Assembly: GCA_028704945.1 (NCBI GenBank)
Contig: JAQWEL010000002.1
Location: 62,001-126,000, forward strand
Length of the DNA stretch: 64,000 nucleotides
DNA from: Patescibacteria group bacterium
Lineage (GTDB): Bacteria; Patescibacteriota; Patescibacteriia; Patescibacteriales; Patescibacteriaceae
Direction of reading: 5' to 3'
Made by a program: the position numbers and the translations under genes. The notes under the pieces are model-generated. The model was not told where the DNA came from. It was given only the letters and a program-made list of their open reading frames with translations, and did not search any database. Positions 7,002 to 23,382 of the stretch are shown here, in pieces. Position 1 is the stretch's first letter. Each line of letters opens with the position of its first letter.

Positions 7002-7574
7002 ATGTTTAATAATTTTAATAAAAAAGCTTTTACCTTTGTTGAACTAATGGTTACTGTTAGTTTGTTAGTTATAGTTTTAACTATTTCTTCGGTCAGCTAT
7101 CGCCGATCAGCCAAGCGCTCGGAAATTATTGCCGTAGCTCAACAGATGGCTATGGATATCAGAATGATGGAAAGTTTTGCGGCTAATGGCCAAACCTATA
7201 ATAATGAACGAGGAAGTAATATTTGGGGTATACATGTTGGTAAAGATGATGTTAATGGTTATTTATTATTTAATACTCTTACAGATTATTCACTTTACGA
7301 ACATAGCGGTATTTATTTTAAAGATTATAAAAAGGTTAAATTTTCTAGTGGCTTGACCATAGATGAAATTGGTTATGAGGACGATGCCGGCATTAGAACA
7401 CCAACCTCAACGCTTACAATACGTTTTGTGCCACCTGATCCAGCTGTTTATATTGCTGATATGAATCAATATGAATTTCATAAAGCGGCTTATATCAGAC
7501 TCAAAGATAGTTTTAATAATTCTTATAAGAATGTCTATATTAATCGCTTTGGCTTAGTTGACGTGGTTAGATAA
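7002..7574 (+). CDS. Prepilin-like protein (GspH/FimT type)
   Basis: 190 aa. MFNNFNKKAFTFVELMVTVS carries a prepilin cleavage site after Ala, Phe+1 and Glu+5. The membrane helix is followed by RRSAKRSEIIAVAQQMAMDIRM, which resembles minor pseudopilins of the GspH/FimT group. It starts 2 bp after the surface protein gene. It is the first of four minor-pilin-like genes in a row (H, I/V, J/W and X types), an order that matches minor pilin operons priming type IV pilus assembly. Confidence 0.8.
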   Translation: MFNNFNKKAFTFVELMVTVSLLVIVLTISSVSYRRSAKRSEIIAVAQQMAMDIRMMESFAANGQTYNNERGSNIWGIHVGKDDVNGYLLFNTLTDYSLYEHSGIYFKDYKKVKFSSGLTIDEIGYEDDAGIRTPTSTLTIRFVPPDPAVYIADMNQYEFHKAAYIRLKDSFNNSYKNVYINRFGLVDVVR

Positions 7575-7578
7575 AATT

Positions 7579-8319
7579 ATGAAAAGATTAGCTTTTTCTT
7601 TGATTGAAATAATTATTGTTACTTTCGTGATTACCACGGCTTTTATGGGCTTGATGGGCTTGATTAGGAACGCTATCACGGTAACTGCCTCTAATCGTAA
7701 TTCGTTTTTAGCGGTTTCAGCCGCTCAAGAGGCGGTAGAATTAACTAGATTGATTAGGGACCAAAATTGGATGATGAGGAGCCAGCAACCTCAATTAGCC
7801 GCTGCTTTTTATTTTGGTAATAATTTGGTTCCGCCTGAATTTGACGTTGTTATTAAAGATCGAGCCATCACTGGCTGCAGAATGATTTCAACCATTGATT
7901 ATCGAGTTAAGGATCCAGCCAACAGAAGCGTTATAAAAACTTTATATTACGTTAAGACTAAACGTAATAGTACCGAACGCCTTATTTTACGAAATTTTGG
8001 CGTATCCAACAGCGGTTTAATGGCTGATTATATAAAGGATAAAAGATTTCAGCTTTACTTGTGCAAAGACACTAACGGTCAAGAGCACTACCAACAAGAT
8101 CCTGACTGGACAGAGCCGCCAGCTAATTGCCAAACCACCATTTTTCATCGTTTAGTGGAAAATACTTTTAATGACGGGGGAACATTTGATGATGATATTG
8201 ATGATTATATTTCCACCAAGGTGATGGTTTTTTGGTCAGATCGTAACGGCGATCATTATTACGTTTTAAATAATATCCTCAGCAATTACAGCTGGGCTTA
8301 CAATAATGCAGTTGAATAA
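7579..8319 (+). CDS. Prepilin-like protein (GspI/PilV type)
   Basis: About 246 aa from ATG 7579. A TTG further upstream in frame was rejected because ATG 7579 places MKRLAFSLIEIIIV as a proper short leader (cleavage after Ala, Glu+5). The helix is followed by NSFLAVSAAQEAVELTRLIRD, typical of PilV/GspI-like minor pilins. The C-terminal domain is family-specific, with no motif I can name. Its 3' end overlaps the next gene by 14 bp, indicating tight co-translation. Confidence 0.8.
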   Translation: MKRLAFSLIEIIIVTFVITTAFMGLMGLIRNAITVTASNRNSFLAVSAAQEAVELTRLIRDQNWMMRSQQPQLAAAFYFGNNLVPPEFDVVIKDRAITGCRMISTIDYRVKDPANRSVIKTLYYVKTKRNSTERLILRNFGVSNSGLMADYIKDKRFQLYLCKDTNGQEHYQQDPDWTEPPANCQTTIFHRLVENTFNDGGTFDDDIDDYISTKVMVFWSDRNGDHYYVLNNILSNYSWAYNNAVE

Positions 8320-8974
8320 ATTTAACAATAAAGGAGTAACTTTAATTGAGCTTACTATCGCGTTGGCTATTTTTTCTGTTGTCATCGTTATCGCTGTCGA
8401 TTCTTTTATGAGTGTTTTTAGAACCAGCCGTGATTCTATTTATAATCAAAATTTGCAAGATCATGCTGAATTTTTATTTAGCATGATGTCTAAAGAAATT
8501 AGGATGGCTAAGATAAATTACGATGGAACTTGCGATAGTTTTTTTTACGGCAAGCCTGTTAATGGTTCCCAAGTAGTAGAGTTAAATCAGGTTTATGCTA
8601 CTTCGACTATCAACTTGGCTGGGACCAACACAACTGATTTGCGTTTTAAAAATTATAAAAATGAATGTGTTCGTTATTATTTAGAAAAAGATCCTGACAA
8701 TAATAATGTTACCCGCCTTAAGGTAGACCGCCAAAATCCAGCTGGCACAGCTACGGAGTCTTATTGGGTTTCGCCGATTGTGATGGATATCCAAAATATA
8801 AATTTTGCTGCCACGCCCTTTAAGTTTAACGAGCCGGTTAAGATTTCTAATGCTCTTTACTCTCAGCTGCCGTCTTATGTTTATTACACCATGAAGATTA
8901 AATCTAATCTGTGGAGTCCTGATACTATTACCTATACTAATTTTATTGTTGGACGTAATTTTGAACAATTTTAA
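8306..8974 (+). CDS. Prepilin-like protein (GspJ/PilW type)
   Basis: 222 aa. MQLNKFNNKGVTLIELTIAL has cleavage after Gly, Val+1 and Glu+5. After the TM helix, NLQDHAEFLFSMMSKEIRMA matches the region following the helix in PilW/GspJ minor pilins. It overlaps the 3' end of the preceding minor pilin gene and is followed after 1 bp by the PilX-like gene. Confidence 0.8.
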   Translation: MQLNKFNNKGVTLIELTIALAIFSVVIVIAVDSFMSVFRTSRDSIYNQNLQDHAEFLFSMMSKEIRMAKINYDGTCDSFFYGKPVNGSQVVELNQVYATSTINLAGTNTTDLRFKNYKNECVRYYLEKDPDNNNVTRLKVDRQNPAGTATESYWVSPIVMDIQNINFAATPFKFNEPVKISNALYSQLPSYVYYTMKIKSNLWSPDTITYTNFIVGRNFEQF

Positions 8975-8975
8975 T

Positions 8976-9578
8976 ATGTTTAAGATGATAAAAGACAAAA
9001 AAGGCTCAGCTTTGATAACCGTTATGTTTTTACTTAGCGCCATGTTGGTTGTGTCTTTGGTTGCTATGGAGATAATTAATAGTGGAATTAAGCGCCGTCG
9101 CTCGGAAGGAGCCTCAGCTAAAGCATTCTATGCTGCTGAATCTGGTTTAGAATTGGCTCTCGAGATGTTTAGGTATGATGCTGGTATCCCCTTGGATAAT
9201 ACTTCAATTTATGATAAGTGTATAAGCCAAAGTTATTTGTATGTTAAGGTTGAAGCCTATAGAAATAGGCATGATTGGTCAGCGATTAATACCTGTACTA
9301 ACAGCTCGGAAGATTGCGTCTGCATGGTTAACAGCAATATTGGTTACGGCACTTATTATCTTAATGGTGACAGCAGTCTGCCGAAATTTTCTGCTTTTGT
9401 CACCACTTCAACCGACCCAAATCCTATTTATGCTACCTCAACCCCAAGAGAGCTGACAGTCCATTCCAATGCCTCTTATTTGGGTACTGCCAGAGAAGTT
9501 GCTGTTAGTTTTTGTTTGCCCAGTTGTTATTTAAAATCTGCTGGCGATAATGATGGTTGCGGAGGAGCATGTAATTAA
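8976..9578 (+). CDS. PilX-like minor pilin with Cys-rich end
   Basis: About 200 aa from ATG 8976, which directly follows the stop of the upstream gene. MFKMIKDKKGSALITVMFLL is the N-terminus of PilX_N-type proteins, which lack Glu+5. SAKAFYAAESGLELALEM is the family's signature region after the helix. The protein ends CLPSCYLKSAGDNDGCGGACN, a shortened form of the Cys module of the pilin at 1056-1610. It closes the surface block; ligA starts 7 bp after the stop. PilX-type proteins can act at the pilus tip or promote cell-cell contact (family knowledge). Confidence 0.78.
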   Translation: MFKMIKDKKGSALITVMFLLSAMLVVSLVAMEIINSGIKRRRSEGASAKAFYAAESGLELALEMFRYDAGIPLDNTSIYDKCISQSYLYVKVEAYRNRHDWSAINTCTNSSEDCVCMVNSNIGYGTYYLNGDSSLPKFSAFVTTSTDPNPIYATSTPRELTVHSNASYLGTAREVAVSFCLPSCYLKSAGDNDGCGGACN

Positions 9579-11989: not shown

Positions 11990-12385
11990 ATGAGAATTTT
12001 AGTCATTGATAATGATATTAATATTAATGGTCTTATCAAAAGTGTACTGAGTTTAGAAAAGGATTTTGAGGCTGATTTTGCTTTGTCTGGTAAGGAAGGA
12101 CTAAAGAAGCTAAAAAGCGAACACTTTGATGTTGCTTTGGTTGACTTAACCATGCCTGAAGTCTCCGGCTTTGATATTTGTAAATTTATGTCAGCTGATG
12201 ATGAGCTGAAAAAAATTCCGGTTATTATTGTTTCCGCGATGCCGATTAATGATAAGGATTATCAACGAGAAAACGGTAATTTTCAGAATTTGCCAGTTGT
12301 TAAGAGTATGATTGAAAAACCATTTGACGTTCATGATTTATTAAAGCAAATTCGTGATGTAGTAAGTGCGGCTTCAACAGCTTAG
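11990..12385 (+). CDS. Stand-alone response regulator (REC domain)
   Basis: 131 aa, a single receiver domain with no output domain. The phospho-acceptor is D52 (VALVDLTMPEVSGFD). The acidic pocket is in ILVIDNDIN, Ser in IIVSAM, and the conserved Lys-Pro pair in IEKPFD. It probably relays phosphate from a kinase to a protein partner. Two histidine kinases and a second REC protein lie 1.5-5 kb downstream. Confidence 0.88.
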   Translation: MRILVIDNDININGLIKSVLSLEKDFEADFALSGKEGLKKLKSEHFDVALVDLTMPEVSGFDICKFMSADDELKKIPVIIVSAMPINDKDYQRENGNFQNLPVVKSMIEKPFDVHDLLKQIRDVVSAASTA

Positions 12386-12511: not shown

Positions 12512-13774
12512 ATGAAGCGGTTGAGTTTGATTTTGGCGGATAAATTGAAATTTATCTATAAAACTTATGAGGTTACGTATTTAGGGATTACTTGGAGAGC
12601 AATTATGTTTGTTTTAGATTGGCGAAATCACCTAAATACTTTTTGGCGACTAATTAAGAATTTTCCCAAGACCATTTGGGGTCAACCAATTGATGTTGTC
12701 TTTATTTCCAATCTTCGCGATTCCAGAGACCGGCAGCTTTTTTTAGGAGTTTTTAATGATCCTAAAGATGGTTTTTTTAATAGTGCCCGCATTAAGTTTA
12801 AAGGTTTGAATGCTCGAATATTAATGATTAATTCTGACGCTTTAGAATTATTTCGACCTCAAACAAAGAAAATTGCTCAAAAGCAATTTATGAACGCAGT
12901 TGCTTTTGCCGTCAAAAGAGGTGCTAAGGTGATATTATTTGCCGCCGGTGTTAAAAGGTTATTCAATAAGCAGGAAATGAACGATATTCAAAAACAGTAT
13001 CCTGATATTTTATTTACTATTGGCGACAACGGCACAGCAATAACTTTGATTTCGGATATTGAGAAAGTAATTAAGCTTGCTTGCCCATCATTAAACAAAA
13101 TAAAATTTGTTGTTTTGGGACCGTCTGGTCATTTAGGCAAAGCAGCTATCGCTCATTTTTCTCAAGATAAGCGATATGAGATTTATGGACTCGGTTCAGA
13201 TTTAAAAAGATCAAAATTGATAGCCAATAAATTCGGAACCAAGTCGATTGAAAGTTTTGCTGAAATTAATGAGGCTGATATCGTGATTGCTTGCACCCAT
13301 GATGATAAATTGAGGTTAAATCAAGAGACAATTGAGCAGATTAAGCCAAAACAGCGAAAATTGATTGTAATTGATGTGGCTGAACCAAAAAATTTAACCA
13401 AAGATGAGTATGAACAATGTCAACATGATGTTGTGGTGATACATACCGGCGACCCGTATTCGTCAAAACTTAAATATGTCGCTCAAATAATGTCGACGCA
13501 TATCTTGAGATTGAAGCCACATATTATTTTTGGCTGTTTTGCGGAAGCGCTTGTACTCGGATTAGCGTTAAAGGATAAATCATTATCTTTAAGTAAAGCG
13601 CTTAATAATAAGGAGTATCCTTGGTTTGATAGTCAAAAAAAGGAATATGATTGGCTTGAGGTTAATGATAGAGGCAAAGCGATGATTTTGGCTTTATTTA
13701 AGAAATATGGTTTTGAGTTGGGCTATTTACGAAATTTTAAAGGAAAAATAAAATCAATCGAATTGTCACGATAA
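12512..13774 (+). CDS. Acyl-ACP-reductase-like NAD(P)-binding protein
   Basis: 420 aa. A Rossmann fold is visible: VVLGPSGHLGKAA with glycines 203, 206 and 209, then ADIVIACTHDD. From recalled sequences, the order of motifs parallels cyanobacterial long-chain acyl-ACP reductase: a helical segment before AAGVKRLF, FTIGDNGTAIT, the Rossmann glycines, IDVAEPKNL, VVVIHTGDP, then GCFAEALVLG. The last aligns with ACFAEA, which carries the catalytic Cys; here it is C342. The first ~60 residues look like an extra amphipathic or membrane-associated region. The enzyme family reduces fatty acyl-ACP to aldehyde, but the substrate here is unknown. A strong SD (aaggag) precedes the ATG, unusual in this window. 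A terminator follows at 13793-13829, so it is probably monocistronic. Confidence 0.6.
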   Translation: MKRLSLILADKLKFIYKTYEVTYLGITWRAIMFVLDWRNHLNTFWRLIKNFPKTIWGQPIDVVFISNLRDSRDRQLFLGVFNDPKDGFFNSARIKFKGLNARILMINSDALELFRPQTKKIAQKQFMNAVAFAVKRGAKVILFAAGVKRLFNKQEMNDIQKQYPDILFTIGDNGTAITLISDIEKVIKLACPSLNKIKFVVLGPSGHLGKAAIAHFSQDKRYEIYGLGSDLKRSKLIANKFGTKSIESFAEINEADIVIACTHDDKLRLNQETIEQIKPKQRKLIVIDVAEPKNLTKDEYEQCQHDVVVIHTGDPYSSKLKYVAQIMSTHILRLKPHIIFGCFAEALVLGLALKDKSLSLSKALNNKEYPWFDSQKKEYDWLEVNDRGKAMILALFKKYGFELGYLRNFKGKIKSIELSR

Positions 13775-13792: not shown

Positions 13793-13829
13793 AAGAGGGT
13801 GGGTTAGACAAAGCTTTCCCTCTTTTTTA
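13793..13829 (+). terminator. Intrinsic terminator
   Basis: aagaggg (13793-13799) pairs with ccctctt (13818-13824) and a T tract follows. It ends the transcript of the acyl-ACP-reductase-like gene. Confidence 0.7.
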
Positions 13830-13845: not shown

Positions 13846-13851
13846 TATAAT
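13846..13851 (+). promoter_or_regulatory. TATAAT -10 box, leaderless start for kinase gene
   Basis: TATAAT lies 7 bp before ATG 13859, so the predicted start of transcription falls on or beside the start codon. The -35 region is only a T-rich stretch, so this is a weaker call. Confidence 0.45.
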
Positions 13852-13858
13852 TATAAAT

Positions 13859-16063
13859 ATGGAGGGAACTATTATTCCACAAATTCTTTCTCTATTAAGC
13901 TCTCTGCTTATTTTTGGTTTGGGATTTTTTGTTTTTAGAAAAGATGTTAAAAAACCTATTAACATCCTGTTTTTTTTAATTTCTATTGTTTTTACGATTT
14001 GGGAGATAGGTACCTTCATGATGTTTGGAGCTAAAACCGACAAAGAGATTGTTTTTTGGGATAGAATTGTCTATTTAGGAGTGGTTTTTGTTCCAGTTAT
14101 TGAATACCATTTTAGTTTAGTGGCGACCCGTTATACCAGTAAACGCAAGGTTATGCTGGTGATTGCTTATTTTTTGAGTTTTATTTTTTTGTTAGTTAGC
14201 CGAACCGATTATTTTATTGATGGTGTCTTCCGTTATCAGTGGGGAGCACACTCGATTGCTCAAATCGGACACCATTTATTTTTAGTTTATTTCTTCTTCT
14301 ATGTTTTTGCCCTGCTTTATAATTTTTTTACAGAAAAGAAACTGCATCAATCAATGATTGAAATTAAGAGAATAAATTATTTTATTATTGGCTTTGTTTT
14401 TCTTAATATTGTTGGAGGGGTTGCTTATTTACCAGCTTATTCTTTACCAGTTTATCCTTTTGCTTTAGTTTCACCGACGGTTTTTGCCTTGATTATTTCA
14501 TATTCCATTATTAATTATCGGTTGATGAATTTGCGGATAGTTTTAAGACAATCCGTTGTTTATTTAGGTTCTTTATTTATAACTTGTTTAATCGTCTTTA
14601 TTTTTAAGTATTCTTTTAATTATTTTTTACCAGAAATAAGTTATATTTTAGATTTTGTTATCTTGTTGATTGCTTTAGTCATCTTTCCTGTTTTAAAGAG
14701 ATCTAGTTATAAGCTTGCCAATAGATTCTTTTTTACGTCATTGTATGATGCTAAAAAAGTAATCGCCGCCTTAAGCGAGGAATTAAGTTCAACTTTAGAT
14801 AACGACAAGATATTTGAAGCGACTGATCGAACGCTTAGTAAAGCCTTCCATTCGAAGGGGATTGCTGTCTTTCAATTTAATAAAAGCACTAATAATTTTG
14901 ATTTAGTTTATTCATTCGCGCTTTCTTTTAAAAAACAATCATTTAGATTTAACCGTCATGTCATGAATAATTTTTTGTCTCAAAATAATGTTTTTGTGAT
15001 TGAAGATTTGAAAGATCAAGACGGTATTAAATATGCTGCGTTTATTAGGGAATATCGTGATAAATATGGCATCGACTTGATTGCTCCAATGGTTTTAAAA
15101 CATAAGATTGTCGGTTTTATCGCGCTTGGCCCCAAAGAATCTGGCGATATGTATGATTTGGAGGATACAGAAATGATGACTATCGTGGCTAATCAAGTGG
15201 CGATTTCTTTGGAAAATGCTACGCTGTTTGAAGAAACAAAGAATTTTAATTCCAAGCTTACGAAGGAAGTTGAAAAAGCCACGCATGATTTAAGGACTGC
15301 TAATCAGGAATTAAAAAAATTGGATGAAGCTAAGTCAGAGTTTATTTCTATTGCCAGTCATCAATTACGCACGCCGTTAACCGTTATCAAGGGTTATTCT
15401 TCAATGATGCTTGAGGGAAGTTTCGGTAAAATCCAGCCGCCAGTCATTTCTGAAAATATTCAGAAAATATTTGAATCAAGCCAACGCTTAACTAATTTGG
15501 TTGAAGATCTTTTAAATATTTCTCGCATTGAATCTGGCCGATTAACCTTTACCTTTACTGTTGATGATCTTGAGCCAATCGTTGCCAGTGTAATTGAAGA
15601 ACTTGAAAGCACGGCTAAGGCTAAAAATATTTATCTTAAATATGAAAAGCCAGCAACCAACTTGCCATTAGTTAAGATTGATAAGAACAAAATTAGACAA
15701 GTAATTATTAATATTATTGATAATTCAATTAAGTATACCCAATCAGGCGGCGTTACCGTTCATCTGATAGAAATCGGTGATTTTATCAGGTTTTCGACTA
15801 TTGATACCGGCATGGGAATCAAGCCATCGTTATTACAGCAGTTGTTCCAGAAGTTTTCACGAGGTGAGGAAACATCTGTTATTCATACTGAAGGAACTGG
15901 ATTAGGTCTTTATGTGGGCAAAATGATGATTGAAGAACACGGTGGCCGCATCTGGGCAGAATCTGCTGGCGAGGGTAAGGGCGCAACTTTTTCGTTTGAG
16001 TTGCCGATAGCTAAAAAATCAATCAGCGATAAGCAAGTTGAATCACTTATAGTTAGTAAATAA
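13859..16063 (+). CDS. Multi-TM sensor histidine kinase with GAF domain
   Basis: 734 aa. The first ~280 residues form about eight membrane helices like the 7TM N-terminal domain of histidine kinases. A GAF-like domain (about 300-460) and a short coiled coil come next. The HisKA domain has H501 in IASHQLRTPLTVIKGY. The HATPase domain has an N box (IRQVIINIIDNSIKYT), DTGMGIKP and GTGLGLYVGKMM. It autophosphorylates on His in response to a membrane or internal signal and passes phosphate to a REC protein. It is followed after 1 bp by a second kinase with a near-identical catalytic core and then a REC protein, so the three may form one circuit. Confidence 0.92.
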   Translation: MEGTIIPQILSLLSSLLIFGLGFFVFRKDVKKPINILFFLISIVFTIWEIGTFMMFGAKTDKEIVFWDRIVYLGVVFVPVIEYHFSLVATRYTSKRKVMLVIAYFLSFIFLLVSRTDYFIDGVFRYQWGAHSIAQIGHHLFLVYFFFYVFALLYNFFTEKKLHQSMIEIKRINYFIIGFVFLNIVGGVAYLPAYSLPVYPFALVSPTVFALIISYSIINYRLMNLRIVLRQSVVYLGSLFITCLIVFIFKYSFNYFLPEISYILDFVILLIALVIFPVLKRSSYKLANRFFFTSLYDAKKVIAALSEELSSTLDNDKIFEATDRTLSKAFHSKGIAVFQFNKSTNNFDLVYSFALSFKKQSFRFNRHVMNNFLSQNNVFVIEDLKDQDGIKYAAFIREYRDKYGIDLIAPMVLKHKIVGFIALGPKESGDMYDLEDTEMMTIVANQVAISLENATLFEETKNFNSKLTKEVEKATHDLRTANQELKKLDEAKSEFISIASHQLRTPLTVIKGYSSMMLEGSFGKIQPPVISENIQKIFESSQRLTNLVEDLLNISRIESGRLTFTFTVDDLEPIVASVIEELESTAKAKNIYLKYEKPATNLPLVKIDKNKIRQVIINIIDNSIKYTQSGGVTVHLIEIGDFIRFSTIDTGMGIKPSLLQQLFQKFSRGEETSVIHTEGTGLGLYVGKMMIEEHGGRIWAESAGEGKGATFSFELPIAKKSISDKQVESLIVSK

Positions 16064-16064
16064 T

Positions 16065-17285
16065 ATGAACGGTACAGACTTTTTTTATTTTCAAGAACAT
16101 GGCGCACTATTTATAATTATTTATATATTGCTTTTTTTAACCTTTTTAGCTTTTATTTTCGGTTTATTATTAATGAAAAGATTAAATGAAGAACGGTTGA
16201 TTAACGAACAGCAAAAAACTGATTTGATTAAATTTAAGTTAGCTGTCCAGAATGTTTATGATATTATTATGATTTCTGATGGCGCGGGCAGAATATTGTT
16301 TGTTAATAAAATGTTTGAAGTCACGACTTTTTTTCGAGTCGGAGAAATTGTCGGTCACAATCTTAGCGAAGCTTTAGTCGAGCATTTACCAGCTGATTTT
16401 CTTGAAAATATGCTTAGAACAGTTTTGCGGGAAAACATGATGTTTGACGGTGAAACGTCAGCTAAACGAAAGAACGGCGAGGAATATTTTTTGAAAATAA
16501 ATATTTCTCCGATTTTTGATGAGTATGGCAAAACTGTTTTTTGTGTTGCTATTATGCGAGACGTTTCTAAAGAGAAAGAGATTGAACAGGCTAAATCAGA
16601 TTTCGTTTCAATTGTTTCTCATCAGTTACGCACGCCATTGACCGTTATCAAGGGCTATGTTTCAATGCTTAAGGAGTCTGGCTTTGGGGCTTTATCTGAT
16701 CAACAAAGAGTTATTTTAAGTAAGGTCTATGACTCTAATGAGCATTTGATTAATTTAGTTCAAGATTTGTTGAATATGAGCCGAATTGAAGCTGGTAGAA
16801 TTAAATATGATTTTGAAGAAGGCCAATTAGAAGACGTAGCTAATAATATTGTAGAAGAAATGACCAATGTTGCTAAAGAAAAGGGGCTTTATCTTAAATA
16901 CGAAAAACCAACATCACCTTTACCAAAAGTTAGAGTTGATAAAGAAAAAATCAGACAGGTAATTATCAATTTTATTGACAACGCAATTAAATACACCCCG
17001 CAGGGTGGTTTAACTGTTAGCCTATCAACTGTGGCTGATCATGTTCGTTTTGAAGTGTCGGATACGGGGTTAGGCATAAAAGAAGATGAAATGAATAATT
17101 TGTTTAATAAATATTCAAGAGGTTCTGATGATTCCAGCAAAACCAAGACTATTAAAGGTACTGGTTTAGGCTTATATGTCGCCAAAATGATGGTTGAGGC
17201 GCACAAGGGTGTTATTGGCGCCAGCTCTGACGGCGAAAATAAAGGATCGATATTTTATTTTGAAATACCAGTAATAAAAAAATAA
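16065..17285 (+). CDS. PAS-domain sensor histidine kinase
   Basis: 406 aa. One TM helix (about 12-36), a PAS domain (about 55-165, with GAGRILFVNKMFE and FCVAIMRDVSKEKE), HisKA with H186 in IVSHQLRTPLTVIKGY, and HATPase_c (IRQVIINFIDNAIKYT, DTGLGIKE, GTGLGLYVAKMM). The catalytic core is closely similar to that of the upstream kinase, suggesting tandem duplication with different sensors attached. It starts 1 bp after the upstream stop and ends 4 bp before a REC gene. Confidence 0.93.
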   Translation: MNGTDFFYFQEHGALFIIIYILLFLTFLAFIFGLLLMKRLNEERLINEQQKTDLIKFKLAVQNVYDIIMISDGAGRILFVNKMFEVTTFFRVGEIVGHNLSEALVEHLPADFLENMLRTVLRENMMFDGETSAKRKNGEEYFLKINISPIFDEYGKTVFCVAIMRDVSKEKEIEQAKSDFVSIVSHQLRTPLTVIKGYVSMLKESGFGALSDQQRVILSKVYDSNEHLINLVQDLLNMSRIEAGRIKYDFEEGQLEDVANNIVEEMTNVAKEKGLYLKYEKPTSPLPKVRVDKEKIRQVIINFIDNAIKYTPQGGLTVSLSTVADHVRFEVSDTGLGIKEDEMNNLFNKYSRGSDDSSKTKTIKGTGLGLYVAKMMVEAHKGVIGASSDGENKGSIFYFEIPVIKK

Positions 17286-17289
17286 ACAT

Positions 17290-17670
17290 ATGTCTAAAAA
17301 AATTGTCATCGTTGAAGACGAAGTCTTTTTATCAGAGATGTATAAAATGAAATTTTCAGCAGAAGGCTATGACGTCTACACGGCTGCTAACGGAGAAGAA
17401 GCGCTAAAAGTGGTAAAGGAAGTTATGCCAGATATACTTTTATTAGATTTAGTGATGCCTAAAATGGACGGTTACGAAGTATTAAAGAAATTAAGAGCTG
17501 ATGAGAAGACGAGTAAACTAAAAATTTATGTTTTATCTAACTTGGGTCAGACGGGCGAGGTTGATAAAGGTTTTCAAGAAGGAGCAGATGGTTATTTTGT
17601 TAAATCCAGTATGACCCCGACTCAATTAGCTGATGAGGTGGAGAAAATTTTGGCGTCAAAGCAGTTATAA
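17290..17670 (+). CDS. Stand-alone response regulator (REC domain)
   Basis: 126 aa. Receiver domain with the acidic pair in IVIVEDEVF, phospho-acceptor D53 in LLLDLVMPKMDGYE, Ser in YVLSNLG and Lys in YFVKSSMTP. There is no DNA-binding domain, so output is through protein contact or phosphorelay. It is the third gene of the kinase-kinase-REC operon and the likely target of both upstream kinases. Confidence 0.93.
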   Translation: MSKKIVIVEDEVFLSEMYKMKFSAEGYDVYTAANGEEALKVVKEVMPDILLLDLVMPKMDGYEVLKKLRADEKTSKLKIYVLSNLGQTGEVDKGFQEGADGYFVKSSMTPTQLADEVEKILASKQL

Positions 17671-21232: not shown

Positions 21233-21430
21233 ATGAAAGATAAGTTTTACAGATTGGTTTATGCCATAATAAAAGAGTTGGTCTTGGCAATGACTTTTGC
21301 TAGTTTGGTTTTTCTCTTGATAGAGTTTATTTGTCCACGAGCAATTCAGTCGATTTTAAACCTTTCTTTATGGTTTGTTTTTTGGTTTTTTGGTGTTATA
21401 ATAACTATATTAATGAATAATTATGATTAA
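21233..21430 (+). CDS. Small two-TM membrane protein
   Basis: 65 aa with two hydrophobic segments (about 12-32, IIKELVLAMTFASLVFLLIE, and 42-60, LSLWFVFWFFGVIITILM) and few other residues. No family was recognised. Its 3' end overlaps the next gene's start by 8 bp, and a TATAAT box inside it (21397-21402) may serve that gene. Confidence 0.5.
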   Translation: MKDKFYRLVYAIIKELVLAMTFASLVFLLIEFICPRAIQSILNLSLWFVFWFFGVIITILMNNYD

Positions 21431-21878
21431 CGGAATTGTAATAAAAAAATTGAATAAGTATCAAGATGATCGCGGCTGGTTAACTGAAATCTGGCGCGAA
21501 GATGAAGATAACTATTCTCCGGCCATGAGTTATATTAGTATTACCTTGCCAGGAGTGGCTCGTGGGCCGCATGAGCATGTTTATCAGTCAGACTGTTTTG
21601 TTTTTATCGGCCCAGGCTTTTTCGATCTTTATCTTTGGGATAGGCGTGAAAATAGCCCAACCAAGGGTGAGTTTATGAAGTTAGAGAAATTAGGAGAGGA
21701 AAATCCAACCGCTGTCATTGTCCCGCCAGGAGTGGTTCATGGCTATAAATGTATGAGTGAAGTGCCTGCCACCTGTATTAATTTGCCGGATAAGCTTTAT
21801 AAAGGTGAAAACAAAACTGAAGAAATTGATGAAATACGCTGGGAAAAAGATGAGAATTCTATTTTTAAAATAGATTAA
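21423..21878 (+). CDS. rmlC: dTDP-4-dehydrorhamnose 3,5-epimerase-like cupin
   Basis: 151 aa, shorter than the usual ~180 aa RmlC. Features: KYQDDRGWLTEIWR, the His-containing ARGPHEH motif where RmlC has its catalytic His, and VPPGVVHGYKC in the distal beta-barrel. Together with rmlB, rmlD and rmlA downstream it would complete dTDP-L-rhamnose synthesis by epimerising C3 and C5 of the 4-keto-6-deoxy sugar. Because of its size and divergence it could instead be a related 3- or 5-epimerase or isomerase. The assignment rests on motif plus context. Confidence 0.75.
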   Translation: MINGIVIKKLNKYQDDRGWLTEIWREDEDNYSPAMSYISITLPGVARGPHEHVYQSDCFVFIGPGFFDLYLWDRRENSPTKGEFMKLEKLGEENPTAVIVPPGVVHGYKCMSEVPATCINLPDKLYKGENKTEEIDEIRWEKDENSIFKID

Positions 21879-21900
21879 TTAATTTATTTAACATAAAAAT

Positions 21901-22311
21901 ATGGAGTGTATTTTTTGCAAAGTCATAAAAGGCGAATTGCCTTCTTATAAGATTTATGATGATGATTATGTAGTCGCTTTTTTAGATATCGCTCCTGTTA
22001 ATGAAGGTCATATATTAGTTGTCCCCAAAAAGCATTTTGATAGTTTAGAAGAGGTTGATGAACTGATGTTGTCTTATGTGATGAATATTGTTAAGAAATG
22101 TGGCGCAGCGATTGAAAAGACTTTGGGGGTTAAGGGCTATAATGTCATCATTAATAACGGTTCAGTTGCCGGACAAGTAATTAATCATTTTCATTGCCAT
22201 GTTATTCCGCGTCGAGATGATGATGGTTTGCATAACTGGCCACAAAAAAATTATCCAGAAGGCAAAGCTGAGGAAATTGTTGCTAAATTGGCAGCTGAAT
22301 TAAAAAAATAG
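21901..22311 (+). CDS. HIT-family hydrolase (HinT-like)
   Basis: 136 aa. CIFCKVIKGELPS at the N-terminus and the histidine triad HFHCHVIPR near residues 98-106 identify a HinT-type purine nucleoside phosphoramidase. VNEGHILVVPKKHF is also conserved in the family. It lies between rmlC and a glycosyltransferase and is likely just carried along in the operon. No specific link to glycan synthesis is visible. Confidence 0.93.
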   Translation: MECIFCKVIKGELPSYKIYDDDYVVAFLDIAPVNEGHILVVPKKHFDSLEEVDELMLSYVMNIVKKCGAAIEKTLGVKGYNVIINNGSVAGQVINHFHCHVIPRRDDDGLHNWPQKNYPEGKAEEIVAKLAAELKK

Positions 22312-22341
22312 TGTCAGGAGGCTGATAAACTTATAAAAAAT

Positions 22342-23382
22342 ATGGTAAGAATCCTTTATGGTGTTTCTGGTGAAGGTTTTGGACATGCTGCTAGGTCTAA
22401 AGAAGTAATTAATCATCTTTTAAAATCAGGTCATGAAGTGAAGGTCTTATCTTATGATCGCGGCTATAATTGGCTTAAATCATATTTTAACACAGAAGAA
22501 ATTTTTGGCTTAAATTTTACTTATGAAGCGAATAAAGTAAAATATCTGCCGACAATTTTTAATAATTTGATTAAGACCCCGACAGCCGTTCGTTCAATTG
22601 AAAAAATTAAGAATATTATTAATAAGTTTAAGCCTGAGATAGTTTTTACTGACTATGAGCCGTTGACTTGTTTTGTTGCTAATCTTTATAATTTACCTTT
22701 AATATCGCTTGATAATCAGCATCTATTAACCAGAACCAAATTAGAATATCCCGAAATTTATCATGCCGAAGCTTTAGCGGCTAAAATAGTTACTAAGTTA
22801 ATGGTTTTTAACGCCAAAGAATATTTGATCACTAATTTTTTTGCCGTTGAAATAATTGATAAAAAGACCAAGATATTGCCACCGATAGTTAGACAAGAAA
22901 TTTTGGACGCTAAACCGCAATTAGGCGATTATGTTTTGGTTTATCTTACTTCAGACGCCACTAATGTTACAGATGGCTTGAAAGGGCTCAATTATAAATT
23001 TAAGGTCTATGGCTTAGCTCAAAGAGGGGTTGAAGATAATATTGAGTATAAAGAATACGATCAAGAAAATTTTTTGACTGACCTGATAAATTGCCAAGCG
23101 ATCATCGGTAATGCCGGCTTAAGTTTGATTTGCGAAGCCTTGTTTTTAAAAAAGCCTTATTTAGCTGTACCGGCTAAAGCTCAGTTTGAACAAGCTTTAA
23201 ATGCGATATATTTAGAAAAGCTCGGTTATGGACGTATGACAGAAAATTTGACCAAGGTAGCAGCGGCTGATTTTTTGTCAAACTTAGATTATTACCGCCA
23301 CGCTTTAGAAAATTATAAATCGTTAGGCAATACAACTGTTTTTAAGGCGGTTGACGAAGTAATCGCTAAATTTTCCAAATAA
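22342..23382 (+). CDS. GT28/MJ1255-like glycosyltransferase
   Basis: 346 aa, GT-B fold. The N-terminus RILYGVSGEGFGHAARSKE is typical of the MJ1255/VC2487 family, which is related to MurG. The C-terminal sugar-nucleotide site region reads CQAIIGNAGLSLICEALFL, then KPYLAVPAKAQFEQALNA. It probably transfers a sugar from a nucleotide donor to a lipid or polysaccharide acceptor at the inner membrane. Donor and acceptor cannot be read from sequence. Confidence 0.82.
   Translation: MVRILYGVSGEGFGHAARSKEVINHLLKSGHEVKVLSYDRGYNWLKSYFNTEEIFGLNFTYEANKVKYLPTIFNNLIKTPTAVRSIEKIKNIINKFKPEIVFTDYEPLTCFVANLYNLPLISLDNQHLLTRTKLEYPEIYHAEALAAKIVTKLMVFNAKEYLITNFFAVEIIDKKTKILPPIVRQEILDAKPQLGDYVLVYLTSDATNVTDGLKGLNYKFKVYGLAQRGVEDNIEYKEYDQENFLTDLINCQAIIGNAGLSLICEALFLKKPYLAVPAKAQFEQALNAIYLEKLGYGRMTENLTKVAAADFLSNLDYYRHALENYKSLGNTTVFKAVDEVIAKFSK

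Follow-up and report, generated by a model that had tools for sequence, protein, structure and literature searches.

In the CqsA/CqsS, LqsA/LqsS and PhcB/PhcS systems the gene for a small-molecule synthase adjoins the gene for a membrane histidine kinase, and such enzyme-kinase gene pairs are an established feature of quorum sensing; little is known of how CPR bacteria perceive one another or their hosts. The closest described relatives of the enzyme considered here belong to the thioester-reductase superfamily. In the cyanobacterial acyl-ACP reductase (AAR) SeAAR the catalytic cysteine is Cys294, and residues R73, R79 and K80 contact ADO (PMC7089970); PigE is reported to reduce a thioester (PMC8341465).

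We describe an AAR-type gene from the window, by which is meant the whole 64,000-nucleotide stretch of Patescibacteria DNA that was analysed. Its product is a divergent member of this known superfamily, and it lies beside the gene for a 7TM histidine kinase (Table 1). What appears to be new is the pairing of these two genes, its occurrence in several phyla with kinases of two architectures, and an apparent swapping of lipid enzymes next to related 7TM receptors in CPR; no description of the pair was found in the literature searched, in which subscription titles were incompletely covered.

Table 1. Features of the reductase-kinase locus (window coordinates)
Feature	Position	Strand	Basis
Response-regulator receiver protein, upstream of the reductase-like gene	11990..12385	+	PF00072 E=1.2e-15
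AAR/thioester-reductase-like protein, 420 aa	12512..13774	+	ORF, TIGR04058 and PDB profile matches, AlphaFold model and Foldseek, family alignments A1-A3
Dinucleotide loop GPSGHLG, residues 203-209	13118..13138	+	aligned to SeAAR 162-GATGDIG-168
Cys342 codon TGT, predicted acyl-thioester cysteine	13535..13537	+	aligned to SeAAR Cys294
Terminator-like hairpin AAGAGGG...CCCTCTT, then T-tract	13793..13824	+	read from sequence, folded with counterparts
TATAAT, possible -10 element before kinase ATG	13846..13851	+	agreement with the consensus alone, which does not show function
7TM-GAF-HisKA-HATPase histidine kinase, proposed receptor	13859..16063	+	PF16927, GAF_3, HisKA, HATPase_c
PAS histidine kinase, downstream	16065..17285	+	PAS, HisKA, HATPase_c
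Receiver-type protein, downstream	17290..17670	+	ORF; falls in kinase/receiver cluster

Results

Family of the reductase-like protein

The sequence-only reading of this DNA had proposed an AAR-like protein in which GPSGHLG is followed by GCFAEA with Cys342. The ORF and both motifs are present in that order; its start is an ATG with AAAGGAGAAA just upstream, and GCFAEA occupies residues 341-346. The best NCBIfam model for the protein is TIGR04058 (cyanobacterial acyl-ACP reductase), which matches residues 115-352 with E=1.1e-10 and a score of 41.4 bits, below the curated cut-off of 449.7 bits. A profile made from 35 family sequences (alignment A2) matches SeAAR (6JZU) in the PDB with E=1.4e-10; the match is colinear through both domains and aligns Cys342 on Cys294. 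When the AlphaFold model (mean pLDDT 89) was compared with the PDB using Foldseek, the top 17 matches were to the carmabin TAD thioester reductase and SeAAR (E 1e-15 to 6e-13), the next class being amino-acid dehydrogenases at E about 1e-8. The proposed likeness to AAR is therefore upheld both by the HMM search and by structure prediction.

Two other families had been named as possible closer relatives and both were rejected on coverage and score. Glutamyl-tRNA reductase (HemA) reached 32.9 bits of 209.6 and matched the Rossmann part only; PF01488, of the shikimate dehydrogenase family, covers residues 191-298 only. Judged by its profile matches and predicted fold, the window protein is a member of the AAR/PigE/TAD thioester-reductase superfamily. 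Cyanobacterial AAR is nevertheless no orthologue of the protein: the score is 41 bits against a 450-bit cut-off, the genome search found no ADO and the residues equivalent to the ADO contacts are changed.

The dinucleotide loop and the catalytic-type cysteine are retained. GPSGHLG fits the dinucleotide loop pattern of the superfamily, GX(1-3)GX(1-2)G, and in A3, the widest alignment, G203, G209 and Cys342 are all invariant, the cysteine down to 19% identity; in A2 it is missing only from Chitinimonas. Retention of the cysteine had been noted by the sequence-only reading. A membrane-binding amphipathic helix at the N-terminus, an idea that came from the model, was discarded, since among 35 members the hydrophobic moment exceeded that of shuffled sequences only for the window's own sequence.

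Lipid metabolism of the host genome

The presumption of a CPR genome was correct: the assembly comprises 984 kb in 13 contigs, is 97.6% complete, and its nearest gene-carrying relatives are Candidatus Falkowbacteria (CPR). Statements about this genome as a whole are based on family searches. Using reference genomes as positive controls, these found no ACP, no AMP-binding ligase, no PlsC acyltransferase, no ketosynthase and no aldehyde dehydrogenase. A search for ADO (PF11266) also found none, so that the check for an aldehyde-using partner gene, which the sequence-only reading had recommended, revealed no such gene. The further suggestion that it processes scavenged lipids or host acyl groups is compatible with a genome in which no ACP, ligase, ketosynthase or PlsC of its own is seen, but no scavenging partner was found in the genome either. 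As ACP, AMP-ligase and ketosynthase are not recognisable, the acyl donor is unexplained, and this counts against the protein being the synthase of a signal.

Elsewhere in the window several consecutive short genes (7002-9578), whose products begin like prepilins, lie upstream of ligA and are common to loci L012, L014 and L016; genes for a dTDP-sugar isomerase-like protein and a family 1 glycosyltransferase (21423-23382) are possibly the start of a glycan cluster.

Linkage to 7TM kinases in CPR loci

An AAR-type gene is accompanied by a 7TM kinase in all 19 CPR loci read (the window, L012-L018, L026, L076-L081 and L112-L115). It is immediately upstream of a 7TM-GAF kinase in 18 of them, a figure that includes loci in which only the 7TM part of the kinase follows, owing to a contig end or a split frame; L081 has an acyl-CoA ligase (long-chain type), kinase, receiver and AAR-type gene, in that order. 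Some of the AAR-type proteins are only about 19% identical to that of the window and still retain the cysteine and the glycine loop. The genomic settings of the loci also differ, a ligA-gatC setting being common to several and not to others. Within the window's own genome the adjoining kinase is the only match of its 7TM domain. Across 61 relatives, with related genomes treated as independent, the core-family gene was found in 8/12 genomes with a close 7TM domain versus 1/49 without one (Fisher p=1.4e-6). The four genomes that had a close 7TM domain and no core-family match were then the source of L112-L115, which were found from the kinase side: a more distant AAR-type gene occupies the same place, with the cysteine and glycine loop largely kept (A3).

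Some loci carry additional genes. In L112 the AAR-type gene with its 7TM kinase is immediately preceded by a KAS III-like gene (1389-2483). A second 7TM protein flanks the AAR-type gene on its opposite side in L079 (1225-2712) and L080 (7132-8553); its match to the kinase query stops before the kinase domains.

Of 18 CPR gaps between AAR-type gene and kinase, window included, 16 contain a hairpin similar to that of Table 1; the short gaps of L079 and L080 have no terminator-like hairpin. Co-transcription alone does not therefore explain the linkage, which is not simply that of an operon. From the hairpin sequences, the reductase-like gene and the kinase gene may be transcribed separately. In the window 7 bases separate the end of TATAAT from the ATG of the kinase gene, and the kinase transcript is possibly leaderless.

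Linkage in other phyla

A kinase of different architecture is found near the gene in proteobacteria. In 20 of 24 alpha-, beta- and gammaproteobacterial loci, a set that includes two bins of uncertain name, a DISMED2-7TM kinase is near the AAR-type gene (2.4 kb away in L042), in most cases with a NarL-type regulator next; the four exceptions are L029, L032, L034 and L043. A conserved RND/MMPL-like protein and a LolA-like protein are also encoded in nine loci, most of which have a further gene with no Pfam match. In Nitrospirae-type loci the AAR-like gene is surrounded by genes for a CHASE8 kinase, PlsC and a GGDEF-REC-HD protein. Three Desulfobacterota loci and one Bacteroidetes locus showed no kinase.

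The Desulfobacterota copies (L022, L023 and L024) are close to CPR sequences and had no kinase neighbour in the stretch examined; a small helix-turn-helix-like gene and a possible NDP-forming acyl-CoA synthetase gene, both recognised by eye, are nearby. The cysteine and glycine loop are lost in Chitinimonas L050 and L051 (5986-7167), where L050 reads FGGYAEA and PYGPQG in place of FGCFAEA and the glycine loop; a DISM kinase and regulator still adjoin. The fact that the kinase neighbours are kept while these residues are lost suggests that catalysis is not always needed.

Lipid enzymes beside other CPR 7TM receptors

Less closely related 7TM receptors from the same CPR order are found downstream of other lipid enzymes: an ACP-thioesterase (G005) and a thioesterase (G051), PlsC-methyltransferase (G017, G032), PlsC with HAD (G015, G034, G050), KAS III (G043), an NAD_binding_4 reductase (G057) and methyltransferases (G048, G016, G028, G029). 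The only PlsC genes found in G015, G034, G032 and G050 are those of the kinase locus, these genomes having been chosen for having them. In about nine 7TM-receptor loci a lipid enzyme does not adjoin directly. The neighbours were surveyed once the pattern had already been noticed, and against no formal control set.

Two loci (L123, 2372-8825; L127, 2019-8434) consist of a HAD protein, two PlsC acyltransferases and then two tandem 7TM kinases, and PlsC genes were found in their genomes only in these tandem-kinase loci. Rossmann proteins with a weak match to the AAR-family profile, a GG(K/R)GFIGRR motif and a conserved cysteine are near 7TM kinases in L129 (2459-3391), L133 (5073-5939) and L138 (2384-3436), and are possibly another divergent branch.

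Distribution and trees

Relatives of the window protein are patchily distributed: 8 of 381 genomes of the class have one at E<=1e-20, divergent members included. They are also found in beta- and gammaproteobacteria, Tistrella, Desulfobacterota and Nitrospirae-type MAGs; none was found in the viral contigs searched and there was no match in the plasmids searched. In the reductase tree the proteobacterial sequences fall together and those of Desulfobacterota lie inside a mainly CPR group, a placement which suggests transfer; the deep order is unsafe given the long branches (window 1.85, L018 3.13, L081 4.7) and was not used. L052, L053 and L055 are near-identical, with a TonB plug protein, YfiR, CHASE8 kinase, PlsC, AAR-like protein and GGDEF-REC-HD protein, and their MAGs are labelled Nitrospirae, Thermodesulfovibrio and Deferribacteres; this indicates either recent transfer or mislabelled bins. 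The AAR-adjacent kinases do not form one clade in the kinase tree. A single origin of the kinase partners was accordingly rejected, and repeated pairing or swapping is possible.

Discussion

The presence of a 7TM kinase beside AAR-type genes across CPR, and of a different 7TM counterpart in proteobacteria, is the strongest clue, one missed by the sequence-only reading, and shifts the likely role of the protein from lipid metabolism to signalling or regulation. We propose, tentatively and at a little short of even probability, that the cysteine-dependent reductase makes a lipid-derived signal and that the adjoining 7TM-GAF kinase detects it. The predicted fold, the retained catalytic-type residues and the conserved gene linkage are the observations behind this proposal. 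If, as we infer, the protein is an active enzyme with an acyl substrate, then by analogy with SeAAR (PMC7089970) the acyl group would be taken onto Cys342 and reduced with NAD(P)H, and an aldehyde-type product (acyl aldehyde or a derivative) would be released. Going by the linkage, the 7TM-GAF kinase would detect this product, directly or after modification, and would signal through the flanking receiver proteins; a role between cells is conceivable. The gene neighbourhood is silent on the direction in which information flows between reductase and kinase.

Several results count against the proposal. The linkage is missing from the Desulfobacterota loci (three), the single Bacteroidetes locus and the four proteobacterial exceptions noted above, and the 7TM-receptor loci lacking an adjoining lipid enzyme point the same way, as do the Chitinimonas copies; the equivalent of SeAAR R189 is not kept, which speaks against a signal synthase. 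The main rival, which we consider unlikely, is membrane-lipid homeostasis, in which the 7TM kinase would monitor the condition of the membrane, and acyl groups would be altered or cleared in response by the lipid enzymes linked to it (AAR-type reductase, PlsC, thioesterase, methyltransferase). In its favour, 7TM kinases are adjoined by lipid-tailoring enzymes of generic types and tandem kinases by PlsC-HAD modules, and scavenged lipids are presumably handled by CPR cells. Against it, the window's genome has no recognisable PlsC, ACP or AMP-ligase to build with, and the kinase of the proteobacterial pair has a DISMED2 sensor domain of extracellular type, often with an RND-like protein encoded nearby.

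Alternatively, the protein may be a former enzyme that now acts through the kinase as a non-catalytic cytosolic subunit sensing a ligand or redox state; the Chitinimonas copies, which retain kinase and regulator, the cytosolic-type GAF domain of the kinase and the failure to find an acyl donor in the own-genome searches are consistent with this. We regard it as improbable, since Cys342 and the glycine loop are retained across members at 19-40% identity and the loss is confined to one genus of the set. It is more improbable still that the protein is a metabolic acyl-thioester reductase working on scavenged or host acyl groups with the kinase merely as its regulator: the AAR fold, the cysteine and the acyl-CoA ligase in one relative's cluster would suit such an enzyme, but no aldehyde user (ADO or ALDH) was found in the genome and the same kinase type is paired with quite different lipid enzymes. 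The synteny of some CPR loci (the ligA-gatC block) could be taken to mean that the genes are linked by chance or hitch-hiking, with no functional meaning. This is made very improbable by the differing flanks of many loci, the occurrence of two kinase architectures and the finding of very divergent reductases at an equivalent position, and the spread over phyla already disfavours it.

On the proposal that the reductase makes a signal for the kinase, the two would be one of several exchangeable synthase/receptor pairs in CPR, formed by differing lipid-tailoring enzymes that precede related 7TM receptors. It is conceivable, though in our view unlikely, that CPR lipid-signal systems consist in general of related 7TM kinases with exchangeable synthases (AAR-type reductases, KAS III, acyltransferases, thioesterases, methyltransferases), that the AAR-type synthase is shared with proteobacteria, whose 7TM receptor is a different one, and that CPR and other bacteria could exchange a common or related signal. 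The pair is also found in named, cultured genera (Rheinheimera, Chitinibacter, Vogesella, Methylovulum and Tistrella); if the proposal is true, lipid signalling could first be tested in laboratory strains and then carried over to CPR. The reductase-kinase pairing also offers a partner-gene route to the ligands of orphan 7TM kinases.

In comparison with cyanobacterial AAR (SeAAR, 6JZU), the window protein has the same overall fold and dinucleotide loop, its Cys342 aligns on Cys294, and the two are colinear over about 240 residues. It differs in an extra N-terminal helical region, in having Thr/Lys/Gln at the positions of the ADO contacts R73/R79/K80, in not keeping R189, the NADPH-phosphate residue, in coming from a genome where no ADO was found and in having a kinase as the product of its adjoining gene. 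With the thioester reductase domains of PigE, TamH and carmabin TAD it has the superfamily in common; the top Foldseek matches (9E4S etc.) are of this kind, and the PigE model NF053554 has matches in relatives. Unlike these domains it is a stand-alone protein, with neither a transaminase fusion nor a biosynthetic cluster. The linked kinases carry the domain architectures of 7TMR-DISM and HisKA_7TM (PF16927) histidine kinases. As in CqsA/CqsS, LqsA/LqsS and PhcB/PhcS, an enzyme gene is linked to a membrane histidine kinase gene, whereas the synthases and sensor domains of those systems are of other kinds.
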